Source of the DNA: Albula goreensis
Taxonomy: Eukaryota > Chordata > Actinopteri > Albuliformes > Albulidae
NCBI GenBank assembly: GCA_022829145.1
Contig: CM040746.1
Location: 11,220,184 to 11,284,183, forward strand
Direction of reading: 5' to 3'
Length of the DNA stretch: 64,000 bases
The notes beneath the pieces were generated by a model. The model saw only the letters and a program-made list of their open reading frames with translations, ran no database searches and was not told where the DNA came from. This document shows positions 7,665-54,200 of the stretch, piece after piece. Within the stretch, counting starts at the first letter, position 1. Every line of letters starts with the position of its first letter. A program made the translations under genes and the position numbers.

Positions 7665-8397
7665 TGTCAATTCAATCAAGGTTTATTGGGAGGGCATCCA
7701 TACAAGTACTGCAAAATGCATACACAAGAAATGACAAGCATGACACAAAATAGATAACTTCCACCGTACTGACACACAAAAGTAGAGTGAAAATCGAAGC
7801 TTCAATAGTCAGGTCAATAATCAGAAAATGATTCAAAAAAGTTTTTGTTTTACAATAGTATGACTATAAAGTATTGGGGGACAGCAAGTACTCCTGTCAA
7901 TCCAGAGCCTAAAAAACTTGACTGCACAGCTCCGTCTGCACAGCTCAATCTGCGCAGCGTCAGATGCACAATTCACAGGAAAAGCGTTCAGTCAACATGG
8001 CTGTCAACAGGTCAGAGATTTCAACAAGGTTTAACTTGTGGGTGAAAAACATTCTGTCTGGCGCCGATGGTCTGGTCACATCATTGTTAGCTGATTTTTT
8101 TCTCTTTTTGGTGACCTGTGCTCCATGTTTGTGTTGTGTTAGGGAATTTGTCAGATGAACACAAATGCACATACTCCAGGGAATACAGACATTTATACAG
8201 AGTGTGGGCGAAAACAGCCAGTTGGGTCAGGATAAGAAAATAAATACTAAAATGTAATTAGCCGACGCCCGTGGTGATGTCAAGCAGTTATCCCGGTCCC
8301 TGGGGTTATTACTGTCACTGTAGTTACCAGGTAGGTGCAGACTGGCTTTGCACACACAATGTACGATGCCAGACTGATTCATTATAGCTTTTCCGTA
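7665..8397. other. Gene-free stretch
   Basis: Possible dispersed-repeat remnant at 7665-7830; nothing else recognised. Confidence 0.35.
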
Positions 8398-8945
8398 GAG
8401 CTGGAACCATGCTGGCTCAGTATACCCCATTTCCCATTTTAGAGCTGGAACCATGCTGGCTCAGTATACCCCATTTCCCATTTTAGAGCTGGAACCATGC
8501 TGGCTCAGTATACCCCATTTCCCATTTTAGAGCTGGAACCATGCTGGCTCAGTATACCCCATTTCCCATTTTAGAGCTGGAACCATGCTGGCTCAGTATA
8601 CCCCATTTTTTTCCCAGAGCTGGAACCATGCTGGCTCAGTATACCCCATTTCCCATTTTAGAGCTGGAACCATGCTGGCTCAGTATACCCCATTTCCCAT
8701 TTTAGAGCTGGAACCATGCTGGCTCAGTATACCCTATTTCCTAATTTAGAGCTGGAACCATGCTGGCTCAGTATACTCCATTCCTTATTTTACAGTTGGA
8801 ACCAGGCTGGCTCATTATACCCTTTTCCACTGTATAACTGGAACCAGGCTGGCTCATTAGAGCTGGACCATGCTATTCCATTCTCTATTTTACTGGAACC
8901 AGGCTGGCTCATTATACCCTTTTCCACTGTAGAGGTAGAAAGCTG
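8398..8945. repeat. 44-bp minisatellite
   Basis: The unit GAGCTGGAACCATGCTGGCT + CAGTATACCCCATTTCCCATTTTA is near-perfect for about eight copies to ~8800, then degrades over ~150 bp. The sharp contrast suggests recent expansion at the left end. Confidence 0.95.
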
Positions 8946-11159
8946 GAGAACTGTAGAGCTCAGAGTTCTTTTTCTTTTAAGTTCACAAGGCCAGTTCCCT
9001 AACTGTGATACTACACTACTGCCCACATACAATTCTGAAATCCCATACAATAAGAATTTTCATTGTCAAAAAAGGACAAGACAAGGGCCAGCATCCATTA
9101 TGACATCATAAGTATACAGCAACAGCCAGCATTTGCTCTGCCCCATGCAAGCCTACCTCCAGTACAACAGCATGAGAATCAACACTTTTGCTGTTTCTAT
9201 GGGAAATCTGTCATTTCTGTGGGGGAAAATAACAACACGAAGACAAGAAAGTGAGCAGGCAGACAGGAGATACTTTGTTTTGAGACGAGACTTGGCCTTC
9301 CTGGCAGAGAGGGGAAAGCCAAAACCCTAAAGTCTATGAATGAGGGCTTGTTGATGCTTTGTTGCTTTAAGGCATTGTGCGGGATGGGAATAAGCACTAT
9401 CCCATAACAGCTGTACAAAACAATAAAACAAAACACAAACCCTCTCCTCCTCTAGCTGCACAAGATGACTCTAGATACTACACAGTCAGCTCCTACACAC
9501 AGTTAGATCCTGTCGTGAAATTAGACCATGTGTTTGGATTTACCTTGAAATAGTGTAATTTCTTTCTTGTTTTTAAATAATTCAGCAAGAGAGTGAAGTT
9601 GGAGTTGACACAAAACTCAAGTGAGAACTGCATGTGGAAATTACCCAGCATGCACCACAGCCAGAGCTAACCCTGGAGGAGAAATGTGGGCATGGGGGAC
9701 AGCAATGAGGCTAAGTACTCCCACTAAGGGACTCTAGAGGCAATTACAGACACGAGCAGCGGGGAGAGACATTAACGCTAAATGGCGCACTTCAGTCTCA
9801 ACATCAAACACTCAACAACGCCTCTAATCACCAGGCTAAAAAACTGCATTTCCCATGGGGCCCTTGGACACGCGCAAAGTTGAGACAGAAAGAGGTGATG
9901 TGTCTGTCAGTCTTCTAGCTCAAATTGTGTTATTGTATCCCCCTCCCTTAAGCTCCACTCTCTATCCTCCCTGCGTTTTGATAGACTACTAATATTGCCA
10001 TTCCTTTGATATTTCTCCCTCCACCTACTTTCCACAAGCTCGGCCCTCTAACTTCCTGGCCCTCTGATTGGCTCTTGAAAAACCTGGTGACTCAGGACAA
10101 ACCAAGACTGGGCAATTTTCTTCATGCTAAACATGCTTTCTGGACAAGGCCTAAAGAAGCAGTGGTCTAAACACAGCGGAAGCCAGGAAACCATGGTTCC
10201 TTGTGCTTCAAATCCAACTTAGATCCAGACGCTGAGACAGCCTGCATTAGCTCTCCTCCTTTGTTTTTCTATCAAGGTTGGTAACCTTTCTGCTCAACCA
10301 ATGCTGTCACCTCACAAGATTAAAATTCTCCGCCCACATGGAAAACAAGATATAGCCTGGCATAGACCCACATCAGGCCCACAACATAACACAGTCTTCT
10401 GGCCCTTAAGTACTGAACTCCAGGACAGGTGTGTCTGAATCCTTGAGTATTCAATCAGTGTTTGGGTGTATTAGTATGAAACTTGAAGAAGTGACAAGCA
10501 TTCAGCATGTGTATACATGATATGCTGGCAGAGTCGTCAAGCAAGCAGAACTGAGTATTTATTCAGTCCTTGGTTTAAACATAAATAAACACACACACAT
10601 AGAAATGCTCGACAAGAAAACATAATATGAGAAATTTCATTTCAAATAAATGTTCTTTCTGGTGCCCACCGCTGTCCTACTAAGAGGAAGTAACAAAAAA
10701 ACAAAAAACAAAACAAGCATAAAGTCCTAGAAAACATAGCAGCCAATGGGCTTTGAAAACTTAGAACAGGTGTGTCAAAACACACCTAACCTCACACACT
10801 ATGAAACAATGTGTCCCTCTGTTTTTAGCACAGTTCTTTTCTGGGTTTCTAAGAGTCCTATTTTACCAGAATAATTTCCCATTTGGCCCCGTGTGCTGAA
10901 TGCAGGTCCATCCTTTCCAGAAAGTTACTTGGGAACCGAGCTTTGACACAAAACAGATGCCATTTTTCTTCTGACCACGTTTTTAATTTCCTAAAAACAA
11001 ATTCCTCTCAAACATTTCATCCAGTCTGAAGGGCTGGCAGGACAGACGCTATCGATCTGGTTTTCACTCTGAATTACAGCACGGCGAGCCGCAGCCTGTA
11101 GGATATAAAAGTGATAAATTTACGGCTGGAAATTGTGCAGCCTCTGCCAGGGCTGAAGA
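8946..11159. other. Gene-free stretch, 2.2 kb
   Basis: No exon, RNA or repeat could be supported. It lies within the putative first intron of n4bp3. Confidence 0.4.
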
Positions 11160-27276: not shown

Positions 27277-28126
27277 GTCTCAACCTTACAGCACTATGAG
27301 CCTGACCAGGTCTGTCTCAACCTTACAGCACTATGAGCCTGACCAGGTCTCTCACAACCTTACAGCACTATGAGCCTGACCAGGTCTCTCACAACCTTAA
27401 CCTTACAGCACTATGAGCCTGACCAGGTCTCTCACAACCTTACAGCACTCTCTCATAACCTTACAGCACTATGAGCCTGACCAGGTCTCTCATAACCTTA
27501 CAGAGCCTGACAAGGTCTCTCTCATAACCTAACCTTACAGCACTATGAGCCTGACCAGGTCTCTCACAACCTTACAGCACTACGAGCCTGACAAGGTCTC
27601 TCACAACCTTACAGCACTATGAGCCTGACCAGGTCTCTCATAACCTTACAGCACTATGAGCCTGACAAAGTCTCTCATAACCTTACAGCACTATAAGCCT
27701 GACCAGGTCTCTCATAACCTTACAGCACTATGAGCCTGACCAGGTCTCTCACAACCTTACAGCACTATGAGCCTGACCAGGTCTCTCATAACCTTACAGC
27801 ACTATGAGCCTGACCAGGTCTCTCACAACCTTACAGCACTATGAGCCTGACCAGGTCTCTCATAACCTTACAGCACTATGAGCCTGACCAGGTCTCTCAC
27901 AACCTTACAGCACTATGAGCCTGACCAGGTCTCTCACAACCTTACAGCACTATGAGCCTGACCAGGTCTCTCATAACCTTACAGCACTATGAGCCTGACC
28001 AGGTCTCTCATAACCTTACAGCACTATGAGCCTGACCAGGTCTCTCATAACCTTACAGCACTATGAGCCTGACCAGGTCTCTCATAACCTTACAGCACTA
28101 TGAGCCTGACCAGGTCTCTCATAACC
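27277..28126. repeat. 37-bp minisatellite, about 22 copies
   Basis: The unit GTCTCTCACAACCTTACAGC + ACTATGAGCCTGACCAG is repeated with few differences (CACAACC/CATAACC alternate). The left third has truncated units. Confidence 0.97.
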
Positions 28127-28129
28127 TAT

Positions 28130-48200: not shown

Positions 48201-51200
48201 CTGAGCAGGTGACCTGTAGGTTCTGCCCAAGATTGACAGAGCTAGATGAGGCCTGGATCACCGGAGAGGGAGGGGACACTGGGTCTAAAGGACAAAAGAA
48301 AAAGGTTAAGTCCCCCACCATCCAAACTTAATTCCTGATTGCACTAGCATACTCATGCATTAAAACACATTTTCCATAATTTTTGCATGCAAATTGCAAT
48401 TAACAATGTTGTAATTTCATGGAAGATGCTTGGAGGGTATGTTTTGTTGCTCCAAAGGCATAGGCTGTATGTGATGGTGCATCTGCGCAGTTTGGAAAGG
48501 TGTGACATTTAGTTGGCATGCAAATCAGATGCCTTTGGCTTTGTCTGTGTCAGAGGTTCTTAAGTTCAGTCATTGGGCCACCCCTGTGTCTAGAGATGTT
48601 AGTTTCTTCAATTACTTGAGAAGTGAAGATGGTTGAGCATGTGTGTAAGATCCTCAGGCATAGCCTGAGCTACAAGACTGACAAAATTAGGGAATGATAT
48701 TGAGTGTCTAAGAGAGTAAAACAGCCTAAAACTTTCACACTATTGCAGCTGTGCATCACCATGGTCTGGGGTACTTTGCAGTGGGATTCTGCCTCACAAA
48801 TGTCCCATTGCATTGAAGAGAAAAGTAGCCAGCATAAATTATTTTGAGGCTTATTTTGCCCCCCCCACTGAGGTAGATGAGGACAACTTTGGAATGTATT
48901 TAAAGTTGACATATTTGGGGCTCTTGGTTCATTTGGGATGTATTTGGAACTTGACGTAGATGAGGATGTATTTGAGGACTCAGATGACGTAGTTGGGAAT
49001 GTATTTGGGACTCACAGGTGACATAGATGAGGACATATATGGGACTCACAGTTGACATAGATGAGGACGTATTTGGTAGAGCTCTGCCGCAGGCCACCAT
49101 GGCTTGCCACGCAGTAAACGGAACCAGCATGATGTGGGCGGGGCCTGTGGATGGTGAAGCCCCGCTTCACATCAAAGGAGATCTCGGTTCCATCCACTTT
49201 GAGCTCCTCCGGGGGGAACTCGCGGTGCAGGGTCACGCTGGCCTGTGGGTTGGTCACCTGACAGGGCAGCACTGTGGGCCGGTTGGTGCGCAGCTGGACC
49301 ATCTCGTAGTACTCAGATGAGGGCACAAACAGCTCCTGTGGATCTGCAGGTACACAGGCCATTACAAGCTGGGTTTATTACAGGGTTTACTAAATTCAGT
49401 TCATTTCAGTGTTCTTGTGCTGCTTACAGAAATATTGTCACAAAGCTTTACACAGATCCCAAGCTTAACCCCCACCCCACCCCACAGGGCTATGGGGGTT
49501 AGCACATGATGTATACCAGTGGCTCCTAAAAATATTCAAATCATATGTTTATTACTGTTAGTAGAACTATCCAAACATTTAGTACATTATTACACTCTAA
49601 TTGTACTCCTCTCTTTGCAGTATAAAAGGTTCATTATAATCCTCAGCCTTAAACAGTGTAAATATGTTATAGGTGTATGTGTTAGCATACTTTATGTTTT
49701 GTAGACCACAGGCACAACCAGCATACTCTCTAGACTACAAGAGAAACATGGATCATGCCTCAACATTCCTGAATGCCAAAGCTGGCCAACAGATGGCAGC
49801 CTGTGGCACCAAAACCAGAGCTCACTCCCTCTCTTGCAAGGATTTCATATCAACAGGTTTAGTTTGGTGGGGTTTTTAGGGGTGGCGACTCATGTTTTCT
49901 GTGATCAAGCCTTGTGCCTCATTCACATGTGAAGGCAGTACTAGTCACTGTTGTAGCACTGCTGGTAAAGGGATTATCAGACTTCTTCAGGTGGCATTCC
50001 CAAGACACGAAGAGAAGTTGTCACCAGATATAGCCATTAGAAATAGCCTACTCAGAAGCTTTGCTTTCTCTTCATCAGCACAATCATGTCGGTATACCGT
50101 TTTGTTCTTATTTTTGAGGTGAGTTGATGTTGTTTATGCACAACCTTATGCTTATAGACCACATATAGTAGATTAGGGGTGCCCAGCCCTGATCTTAGTG
50201 AACCAAAGCATCACCTTTATAACACAACTTTTTAGATCCAGATGAGTTGTGTGTAAATATTTGCCTTATTTGAGCAGTTTCTTTAACAGTAACAACAAAA
50301 ATCTGTCAACAGCAGGAAGTACACAGAGGCATTCTGTTTCTGCATTTCATATTGTTTTCTTCATCTTCCTAGGCAAAATGAGGGAGATCTTTCCCGAGGA
50401 AGAATATGAAGACACTGATTGCACTTTTGAACTTTCCAGGGAGGAAAGTGAAGATCTTGACAGAACTTTTGACTTTACAAGAGAAGAAAACAAATATTTT
50501 GACTGCACATATGAAATTCCCAGAGAGGAAAGTGAATTGCTTGACCACACTTTTGAATTTCCTAGGGAAGAAAACGACGATCTTGACCGCACTTTCGAAC
50601 TTACCAGGGAGGAAAGTAAGGAACTTTATCACACTTTTCAGCTAACACAAGAAGATGTTAAGGATTTTCACAATACTATAGAACTTACCAGGGAAGAAAG
50701 CAAAGAGCTTGACCAAACACTCAAACTTTGTAGGGAAGGAAATGAAGATTTTCACCGCTCTTATGAAATTATCAGGGAAGAATTTGAAGCGCTTGACCAC
50801 ACTCTTGAAATTTCTTGGGAAGAAAATGAAGACTTTGACCGGACTTATGAAATTGCCAGGAAGGAAGGTGAAATGCTTGACCACACTTTTGAAATTGCAA
50901 GAGAAGAAAATGAAGATTTTCACCATACTATTGAACTTACCAGGGAAGAAGTGAAGTTGCTTGACTCCACTTTCAAACTTGCAAGAGAAGCACATGAAGA
51001 ACATCTTGACTGCACATTTGAGCTGCCTGCGGAGGAAGGTGACCTTGACTACATGGTTAAACTCCCAGCTATCGTTCTCCTTGCTGTACATGGGAGTGTA
51101 CTCTCCTGTGTCTCACATATGGAGGAGAGAAATGAAGACGATGTCCATGCAGTCAAATGTACCTGGGAAGAAGGTGAGGAACTTGACCGCACATTTGACA

Positions 51201-54200
51201 TTACCAGTGAAGAAAATATAGACCTTGAATGCTCCTGCAGACTACCCAGTGAAGAAAATGAAGACCTTAACTATACCTTTAAATTCCCCATAGAAGAATG
51301 TGAAGACTATAACCACACAATGAAAACTTTCAGGAAAGAAAATGAAGATCTTTACATGTTTGAACTTACCAGGGAAGAAAAAGAATGCTTTTACTGCGCT
51401 TTCATACTCCTCCTGGCAGTCACTGTCCTTATTGTGCATGGAGTAGCATGCCTAATTCCTGGTGTCTTATTTACCAGGGAAGATGACCTTGACTGCATGG
51501 TTGTACTCCTAATGGCAGCAGCACTTCTTGCAGTGCATGGAGTAGAAGGTGTAGTTCCCCATGATCTGCTTACTGGGGAAGAAGGTGAAAACTTTTCCCA
51601 CGCATTCAGACTTACCAGTGAAGAAAACAAAGACCTTGCCCGAATGTTTGAACTCGCCAGAGAAACAAACAAAGACCTTAATCATACATTTGAACTCTCC
51701 ATGGAAGAGGGCAAAGACCTTGCCAACACCGTACAATTTGCAAGAGATGAATATGAAGGTCTTGACTGCACATTTGAATTTATCAAGGGAGAAACCAAGG
51801 ACCTTAACCACACTTTTGAACTTACTTGGGAAGAAAATAAAGACCTTGACCATATGCCTAGACTCAGCAGGAAAGAATGTGAAGTCTTTGATCGCAAGTT
51901 TAAACTCGCCACAGAAGGCGAAGAAGACCTTAATCATTCGTTCAAACTCACCATGGAGGAAAGCAAGGACCTTGATGACACAATACAACTTATAAGTGAA
52001 GAATATGAAGATCTTGACTGCACCTTTGAATTTATCAGGGAAGAAAATGAAGACCATAACCACACCTTCAAACTCACCTGGGAAGAAAAAGACCTTAATC
52101 TTACTTTCGAACTCACCATGGAAGAAAGCAAAGACCTTGACGGCCCAGTACAATTTGCAAGAGAGAAAAATGTTCAAGAAAATCTTGGCTGCACGTTTGA
52201 GCTTATCCGGGGAGAAAGTCAAGATCTAAAACATGCTTTTGAACTTACCTGGGAAGAAAATGAAGACCTTGACTGCACGGTCATATTCCTTCCGGCAGTC
52301 ACTATCCTCGCAGTACATAGGGTAGCAGGTGTACTCCCCTGTGTCAGCGCCTGTGGCATTACTCAGGATGAGAGCGCCATATCGCTCATGCTGGATTGTC
52401 CTGCAGAAAGAAAGAGGTGAGGAGTAAATGAGATACAACTGAGAAAGACATGAGAAATAAAATATTGTGTCTTAGAAACAAGTTAGAAAGAAGGGAACAA
52501 CAAGCAAGAAAACCATGGAACAACTGAGGAAGCAAATGGCACCTAAGTGAGGAACATGCAAGAAACTACCATGAAACAACCTTGTTAAACATTACAGCAA
52601 CAGCAAAACAAATGCAGACCTTAGACACATACTTTAGTCCTTTAGATGCCAGTTCAATCCTGCAAATTGTGATTAAAAAGGAAAATCTATTTGCATCACT
52701 ACTCAGGAAGAAATTCTAAATTTGACCAACTTCTAGAGTTAAGGTATTTCAGACATGTAATGACAGTAGTTCAGGCCAAGGCTGTGTGCTATATTGCAAT
52801 CCAGGCTGTTTGTTTCTTCTCACACAGCCTAACATACTATTTTATGATTATTGTTGTTCATTATTTTTTGAAAATCATGGTATGTTGATGCCGTAATGAA
52901 AGTCTCTAAACATATATGTTTCTCGTATGTATGTTTTTAATAATAAAGACCATGTTTTTTTTTACTTCTGTCCAAGAGTATCTTTAATTTAATCCTATTT
53001 GTACAGCTGAAAAGTGTCTAGAGGCACTCAGGGATGCCCACAGTTACAGCAGCAATGCACCAGCAGTGAATGAAACCTACAATGTCCCAGCTATATAGCC
53101 CAATCTGAGTTTTATTTGGTGAGAACTGTTGAGGGATAGGGTCACTTCCCTTTCATTCTAGTTCTGTTCAATAAATTACAAAATCTGAATAATACTACCA
53201 AATGTAACACTTTTCCTGTGTCTGCATGTCCATGCTACACCCTACACAGTAGGCCAAAATAACAGTAAGTGTAATAGTTTGTGCACTGTGTCCAAATTCT
53301 CTTAACAAATTGAGCAGTATGTGATCATTACCTGGATGGCCTAATGCTTCCAATAAAATTTTGCAGCGTGGAAGCACTGGGCAAAAAAAATCCTGCAAGT
53401 AATCTCTATGTTTGCGAGGAAAAACACCAACAACAGTTAAGAGGTTTAGGAAGATTTTTGCTTATAAGTAGACTAATGAATGAGAAAATTTCTTGTTTCG
53501 TGAGGATGGATGTAGGTCAGTTGGAGGCATCCGCCCATGAGACTTGGAAAAAATGACAGCCGCGGTGTGTCCGATTGGTAACGTACTGCTGATTTGTAGT
53601 TGGCACCACAGGCATGCAAGAGCAGCACGATTTCAACAGAACTCAGTACGCACTATATAGTAGCCCATTTTGGATTCACCTCAAGTTCCAGTAGATTCTA
53701 TCTCAGAGAGTTTTCAGGACATTTTTGTCTTTGGGATTTGATGCCATCTTCTCTTGTCCAGTTTTTGGCTGCATTCTTGTTTTTCTCTGTTCAAACCTTC
53801 ACATTTTCAACTTAGGTCTGGGCTAACAAGTAAATTCAATAGTTTAATCAGGTGCTGTAGTGCATCCTTGGAGCATATCCTTGCTGACAGAGTTTAATAA
53901 CCCTGTCCTTTTCTTTTAATTTCCTGAGCTCACTGAGTTGAAAGGGGATAGAGCTGTCCCTCTGTCTATAAAATGTGCCTCCATTGGAATGTTTGTCTTA
54001 TGGGATATTCTGAATCCTATAGAGGGATTACCTGAGCCGACCCTCATCATCTTCCTCCAGGTATGAGGGAACTGCCCACTGCACAGGTTTGCCCTTGCAC
54101 CTGAGCTCTAGCATGCCCCCGGCCGGCACACTGAGAGTGTCCCCCACTTTCTGGAACTTTCCTTTATCCAGCACCTGCGTAAGGGACACCTGGGCAGGAG

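Follow-up and report, generated by a model that had tools for sequence, protein, structure and literature searches.

The antifreeze glycoprotein AFGP is the well-known case in which a splice junction gave rise to a repeat protein, and its repeats are read on the strand of the parent gene. The notothenioid AFGP gene is reported to derive from trypsinogen, by amplification of a 9-nt element and shedding of the unused trypsinogen coding parts. Overprinting is defined as the appearance of a new frame overlapping an older gene, in the present comparison antisense to it (PMC6542195). In intron gain by tandem duplication, duplication across an exon-intron boundary multiplies the splice signals (PMC4974935), and intron-borne tandem arrays that alter splicing are represented by the variable number tandem repeat (VNTR) of ABCA7 (PMC5954066). 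Here we describe a locus in a 64,000-nt stretch of the Albula goreensis genome (contig CM040746.1, positions 11,220,184 to 11,284,183 of the forward strand; hereafter the window), in which the donor junction of pdgfrl exon 3 has been amplified about 40-fold within intron 3, and the strand opposite the array appears to have been kept open as a coding frame.

The array is old and 1.9 kb long, includes longer copies of the tail of exon 3, and carries donor sites that behave neutrally. Read in the plus direction, it holds an acidic 14-residue repeat frame that, by the statistics given below, has avoided stops and frameshifts and partly kept its amino-acid character. We predict, with a probability of roughly 0.6, that this frame is an exon for a lineage-specific repeat protein that arose from a splice junction and is read in antisense. 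The fuller proposal, which we rate somewhat better than even, is a new lineage-specific protein gene under purifying selection, whose ~2-kb exon would encode 14-residue acidic repeats and hydrophobic stretches antisense to the ~40-fold amplified donor junction, nested in and overlapping pdgfrl. The original prediction, which took the array for a ladder of donor sites, overlooked the plus strand, where the array has a continuous open frame that seems to be under constraint.

As in AFGP, the repeat unit spans the border of an exon and an intron in an unrelated gene, and the amplified repeats form a frame that seems to have been maintained, here as judged by statistics. Unlike in AFGP, the unit is 42 nt long, lies at a donor junction and would be read on the opposite strand, the parent pdgfrl is retained and overlapped, and the product is a predicted one. 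Like antisense overprinted genes, the locus has an open frame opposite an older coding exon, spanning all of exon 3, and the new frame is probably constrained, in the array units; unlike in overprinting, most of the plus frame lies over an intronic array that derives from an exon junction and grew by tandem duplication. In contrast to intron gain by tandem duplication, no new intron in coding sequence is evident, and the copies sit inside an old intron, mostly without the AG. The position inside an intron is shared with the ABCA7 VNTR (PMC5954066), whereas the pdgfrl array unit is itself a splice junction and any effect on splicing is here only a candidate. As for decoy 5′ splice sites, a competing site of comparable strength is present (GT at 52077, 8.51 vs. 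8.63 for the true donor), and sites kept by selection were not found. Among the open-licence PMC papers listed by our searches, judged by title and start of abstract, none dealt with an antisense-read junction array or with any array in pdgfrl. The main features are as follows (in splice-site motifs, here and below, a slash marks the junction).

52249-52400, minus strand: pdgfrl exon 3, source of the array unit, with acceptor, donor and a fish PDGFRL match
50390-52248, minus strand: tandem array in intron 3, ~40 diverged 42-bp units and three longer copies of the exon-3 tail
50378-52420, plus strand: 680-codon open reading frame (ORF), ATG at 50378 and TGA at 52418-52420, antisense to the intron 3 array and exon 3

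The minus strand of the window carries fish pdgfrl, with exon translations that match fish PDGFRL proteins in a protein search and an exon 4 that matches the Pfam VEGFR-1-like Ig-like model (E = 2.5e-16). The acceptor AG of exon 3 ends at 52401 and its donor GT starts from 52248, each ranking among the best 0.1% of its kind in the window. Exon 3 joins exon 4 (49050-49343 by reading) in phase across an intron of 2905 nt, and both exons are intact on either side of the array. In two PDGFRL proteins that read through from exon 3 into exon 4 (P0005 and P0006), intron 3 is apparently just ~105-120 nt long and arrayless. By these two proteins the array is not universal; such proteins reveal short open introns only and say nothing on frequency.

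In each 42-bp unit, 30 nt from the end of exon 3 are followed by 12 nt from the start of intron 3. That about 40 junction copies follow exon 3 had been claimed in the original prediction, and autocorrelation, Tandem Repeats Finder (TRF) and wraparound alignment all bear this out; the composition of the unit, an exon end fused to an intron start, is likewise recovered by the cyclic alignment. Minus-strand autocorrelation peaks at 42, 84, 126, 168 and 252 nt, the longer periods suggesting that multi-unit blocks were duplicated too, and TRF reports arrays with periods of 42, 84 and 168 at 50416-51021 and of 42 at 51987-52089. The wraparound alignment yielded 46 rows between end fragments, 39 of which were kept as units, the exon's own included; the seven left out (51561, 51524, 51462, 51431, 51150, 51089 and 50424) are pieces of exon copies or irregular units. 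Inserted bases of units 52194 and 51015 were removed, unit 50970 was entered as its raw 42 nt, and the last codon of each unit was completed with that unit's own first two bases; wherever the exon's own unit is excluded, n = 38. Array bases differ from the consensus at 22-26% of aligned positions, the unit tree has a length of ~8 substitutions per site, and no exact repeat inside the array exceeds 20 nt, all of which speaks against a young array. A typical copy reads CTG/GT where exon 3 has CAG/GT, and 2 of 38 units retain the acceptor-like AG (1.6 expected in 400 neutral simulations on the unit tree). The motif of the exon-3 frame can be traced in a single frame from exon 3 to the end of the array. 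Three longer members of the array copy the final ~100 nt of exon 3, with 67-71% identity over aligned bases:

51467-51565, minus strand: exon-3 tail copy A, tested slice, with a plus-frame hydrophobic stretch at 51488-51544
51371-51469, minus strand: exon-3 tail copy B, tested slice, with a plus-frame hydrophobic stretch at 51401-51457
51032-51115, minus strand: exon-3 tail copy C, tested slice, with a plus-frame hydrophobic stretch at 51056-51112

On the plus strand, the frame at 50246-52420 runs for 724 codons without a stop, far more than any other in the window (the next has 247), and the ORF within it covers, in antisense, the whole array and all of exon 3. Within the array this frame has no stop in 619 codons, compared with 7 in the 622 codons of the exon-3 frame and 13 to 84 in the other four frames. 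Because repeats can be open by inheritance, neutral decay was simulated on the inferred unit tree. The 38 units contained no plus-frame stop vs. a neutral mean of 9.4-10.2 (three sets of 3000 simulations), and a stop-free frame arose in 0.03% (uniform rates), 0.17% (gamma) and 0.03% (column-specific rates) of the 3000 runs in each set. When residues were permuted within columns, zero plus stops were obtained in 0.12% of 5000 runs. Sense stops were ordinary (6 vs. 8.5-9.0 under neutrality, P = 0.35-0.41).

Constraint was then estimated on the 39 units with a 64-state codon model that has separate factors, per strand, for stop-creating and amino-acid-changing substitutions. For the plus frame, stop avoidance alone raised the log-likelihood (lnL) from −1158.1 to −1145.0, and an added amino-acid factor (omega) of 0.58 brought it to −1138.9. 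The likelihood-ratio test statistic (LRT) of the plus model, combining stop avoidance with an omega of 0.54-0.58, was 38.3, or 37.6 and 40.2 when trees were re-inferred by a fast search. No neutral simulation with a re-inferred tree came up to these values, in sets of 60 (maximum 20.9) and 260 (maximum 19.6), nor did any of 60 simulations of sense coding at an omega of 0.4 (maximum 21.8). The sense frame, in which stops are not avoided, rose just to lnL = −1155.4; its LRT of 5.3 was attained by 12 of 60 neutral runs and that of 6.3 by 60 of 260, neither being significant. In the other two registers, the larger gains go the opposite way, with a plus omega of 1.90 (LRT 14.7) and a sense omega of 1.48 with excess stops (LRT 12.2). 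Second plus positions take a low share of the changes (23% vs. 32-33%, P = 0.0025-0.005), a pattern compatible with coding on either strand, and codon-position periodicity by itself is modest (P = 0.025 under column permutation, any register). The codon model favors constraint on the plus frame in the array units, to which the estimate applies.

Insertions and deletions tell a similar story. In the three pieces of the array without exon copies, we counted 10 indels per 392 substitutions, 7 of them multiples of three; of the other three, two form a +1/−1 pair within unit 50970, and the third is an insertion of ambiguous placement in the final unit. In unit 50970 (50929-50970, minus strand) the +1 and −1 indels lie ~7 nt apart and restore the frame. 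Five other arrays of the window (34-, 44-, 52-, 37- and 47-bp units), aligned with the same aligner, served as controls. With three of them extended past their TRF bounds they gave 35 indels per 173 substitutions (9 of 35 multiples of three), and within strict TRF bounds 13 per 81 (3 of 13). Indels per substitution are thus 6-8 times rarer in the junction array than in control arrays (P = 6e-10; P = 4e-5 vs. strict controls), and the share in multiples of three is higher (7 of 10; P = 0.015 vs. 9/35 and P = 0.03 vs. 3/13). Adding the four internal gaps of the exon copies, all multiples of three, gives 11 of 14 (P = 0.001 vs. 9/35), and if three 1-nt gaps from the margins of those local alignments are counted too, the share is 11 of 17 (P = 0.008 and 0.03).

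The consensus 14-residue repeat of the predicted product, TFELTREENEDLDR, is acidic, and the whole predicted ORF has an isoelectric point of 4.3 and 18% Glu. Mean net charge per plus unit is −2.6 vs. −1.3 under neutrality (P = 0.027, 600 simulations), with acidic residues per unit at P = 0.06 in the same number of runs; sense-frame features were all ordinary in these charge and identity simulations. Four hydrophobic 19-residue stretches (51056-51112, 51401-51457, 51488-51544 and 52280-52336; hydropathy 1.9-2.8) resemble membrane helices and are encoded antisense to exon 3 and its three tail copies. Their hydrophobicity was kept above neutral in two of the three tail copies (P = 0.027, 0.001 and 0.14; combined P = 0.0003), in a test whose feature was chosen after it had been seen, and the sense frame of the tail slices has 2, 2 and 1 stops. 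The sequence thus suggests a repeat protein of acidic character in which four hydrophobic stretches may associate with membranes. Against Pfam, all matches of the ORF fell below cut-off (best bMG1, 22.6 vs. 26.4 bits); the only NCBIfam match was to SMC (24.9 bits vs. a cut-off of 567), and among PDB sequences there was no match at E ≤ 0.1. Putative splice sites flank the open frame on the plus strand:

50353-50373, plus strand: acceptor-like site TGTTTTCTTCATCTTCCTAG/G, 5 nt before the ATG, score 9.47, top 0.15% of 8613 AG sites
52414-52422, plus strand: donor-like site GAG/GTGAGG, overlapping the ORF stop, score 6.27, top 0.4% of 8020 GT sites

These two sites would bound a single, fully open exon of 2044 nt (50373-52416). 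An inverted unit copy at the low edge of the array was considered as the source of the plus acceptor and rejected (local score 23.5, below the 95% point of 26.0 from 300 random windows).

On the pdgfrl strand, the array was scored for donors with a simple matrix of general vertebrate frequencies, not with MaxEntScan, over 8020 GT sites on both strands of the window. Ten donor-like sites remain, the true one included, and nine array sites exceed 5 bits (by core, GGTAAG in five, GGTGAG in three and AAGTAAG in one), in keeping with an earlier count of at least nine copies with a donor core. The true donor has the highest score, 8.63, and comes first in order. One array site is nearly its equal, while the other eight score at most 6.63 (five CTG/GTAAGT at 6.63, two ATG/GTGAGT at 6.34, and 51825 at 5.29). 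Two elements on this strand are the following:

52072-52080, minus strand: strongest donor-like site of the array, CAG/GTGAGT (GT at 52077), 8.51 vs. 8.63 for the true donor, its AG also acceptor-like (7.06)
52226-52228, minus strand: in-frame TAG, the earliest of the 7 stops that the exon-3 frame meets across 622 array codons

The nine sites lie +132, +171, +297, +423, +633, +879, +1308, +1560 and +1644 nt from the true donor. The original prediction held that use of the next donors would add multiples of 42 nt in frame: the frame holds, since all nine offsets are multiples of three, but none is a multiple of 42. It also placed an in-frame TAG in the first unit, at 52228-52226, correctly, and any of the nine best donors would include it. 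Its further proposal, that decoy competition could tune expression, fared poorly. GT is kept in 15 of 38 units vs. a neutral mean of 22.0 (P(≤) = 0.175) and GTRAG in 10 of 38 vs. 11.2 (P(≤) = 0.46; 400 simulations each on the unit tree). Array donors have decayed at a neutral pace and nothing supports tuned decoys, although occasional use of 52077 would not be surprising given its predicted strength. Ratchet points for recursive splicing were also considered, as the exon end TTTTCTTCCCAG/GTAAGT resembles a fused acceptor and donor, but were set aside because the AG is found in just 2 of 38 units.

Tandem growth at a donor junction is not confined to exon 3. The exon 4 donor junction is likewise tandem (48925-49085, minus strand), with ~3.7 diverged copies of a 34-bp unit that joins the exon end to GTGAGTCCC and carries frame-breaking indels, so that two consecutive exons of one gene, 3 and 4, each have a donor-junction array. 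Elsewhere in the window, a 37-bp array at 27278-28127 has ~23 copies, 2% diverged, of a unit (ACCTTACAG/CACTATGAGCCTGACCAG/GTCTCTC) that resembles a minute exon with acceptor and donor. In a 44-bp array at 8389-8950, units have TTTTAG or TTTTCCGTAG before AGCTGGAACC, and the right edge is more diverged. The idea that the other arrays of the window are copies of splice junctions rested on an initial resemblance and was dropped, as only the exon 4 array is tied to a gene, pdgfrl.

Several observations weigh against a constrained plus-strand exon. When the whole array, exon copies included, is forced onto the unit, there are 24 indels per 485 substitutions, 12 of them multiples of three, and the excess of such multiples becomes marginal (P = 0.05); the sparsity of indels persists (P = 6e-7). 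TTC-rich sequence may slip in threes, so part of the excess may be mutational, although slippage does not account for the low indel density. Constraint on both strands fits best (lnL = −1132.1 vs. −1138.9, with a sense omega of 0.53 and a plus omega of 0.44), a result that is not fully explained. A 61-state fit with stops masked gave an omega of 0.87 on the plus and 0.88 on the minus strand (LRT 3.7 and 2.4); it was superseded by the 64-state model, and its optimizer began one parameter at zero, where steps are tiny. Changes are not concentrated at third plus positions (152, vs. 157 at first and 94 at second positions), identity to the plus consensus is not above neutral (0.577 vs. 0.547, P = 0.26) and the BLOSUM score of the plus units is not clearly so (P = 0.10). 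The whole ORF had no homologue at E ≤ 0.001 among the 7992 candidates sharing most words that were scored, nor did its middle piece match at E ≤ 10 among 1272 candidates, from a database that includes fish PDGFRL. AlphaFold, given the single sequence, returned no confident fold (mean predicted local distance difference test score, pLDDT, of 35). The plus-strand splice sites were sought after the ORF had been noticed and carry modest weight, and from 44 to 60 kb no 1-kb segment stands out as CpG-rich (the highest observed/expected ratio, at 46-47 kb, is 0.64).

An unlikely but by no means negligible alternative is an inert intronic minisatellite in which neutral duplication of the junction was tolerated since the first donor was used, and in which the plus ORF stayed open by luck, composition and block duplication. 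The neutral decay of array donors, the second donor-junction array after exon 4 with its 34-bp units and frame-breaking indels, and the absence of a homologue among the scored candidates all fit it, and repetition makes long open frames less surprising than they would be in unique DNA. It sits poorly with neutral simulations that allow for rate variation and array composition, which rarely stay open on the plus strand and never reach its LRT, and with indels rarer than in the other arrays of the window.

A ladder of decoy donors that tunes pdgfrl, with array donors sometimes taken, the TAG included and the transcript degraded, is very improbable. It would draw on the nine sites above 5 bits, one nearly equal to the true donor and each adding a multiple of three plus the TAG, and on the ability of intronic repeats to alter splicing, as summarized for the ABCA7 VNTR (PMC5954066). 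Yet donors are neither retained beyond the neutral level nor significantly depleted, the true donor is both first and best, and P0005 and P0006 imply that the array is not shared by all. We give slightly less credence still to coding on the sense strand, present or past, by which the array would be an extension of exon 3 or supply cassette exons in multiples of three (e.g. the open 462 nt of 52077-51616). The exon-3 frame does hold through the array, with open stretches of 238 and 156 codons, three AG/GT sites among the best acceptors share one phase, and the both-strand model returns a sense omega well below one. However, sense stops occur at their neutral number, the sense model alone is matched by 60 of 260 neutral runs, simulated sense coding yields a mean LRT of 34.6 vs. 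6.3 in the data, and so few units keep the AG. Finally, tandem arrays are prone to misassembly, but a collapsed or inserted repeat is hardly credible here: with units ~25% diverged from the consensus and a longest exact repeat of 20 nt, reads should anchor, and continuity of the frame would not be expected of a misassembly.

The origin of the array and of its plus frame may be sketched as follows. Judging from the copies, the junction was probably duplicated in tandem over and over, sometimes by 42 nt, sometimes by longer segments that extended into exon 3, and sometimes as multi-unit blocks. The pyrimidine-rich exon end (TTC TTC) reads as Glu-Glu on the opposite strand. Expansion lengthened the antisense ORF in frame because the 42-nt unit equals 14 codons and the antisense frame of the exon was open. 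The ORF would be, or would have been until recently, a translated exon of a plus-strand gene nested in pdgfrl and overlapping exon 3, with splicing into it at the acceptor that ends at 50372 and out of it at the 52417 donor, or else a single exon ending at the TGA.

Even if the plus ORF turns out not to be transcribed, pdgfrl remains a gene in which arrays of donor junctions have grown, and been tolerated, at two sites. Arrays judged on the strand of their host gene alone may be misread, and the locus suggests scanning other junction-derived arrays on both strands. If the antisense exon is real, splice-site sequence would have served as raw material for a repeat protein encoded on the other strand. 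Tandem growth could extend the frame because the unit length is divisible by three, and the origin of new coding repeats would become testable at one locus. It would then be a second route to junction-born repeat proteins, in which a pyrimidine-rich exon end and its donor, reversed, become an acidic repeat.

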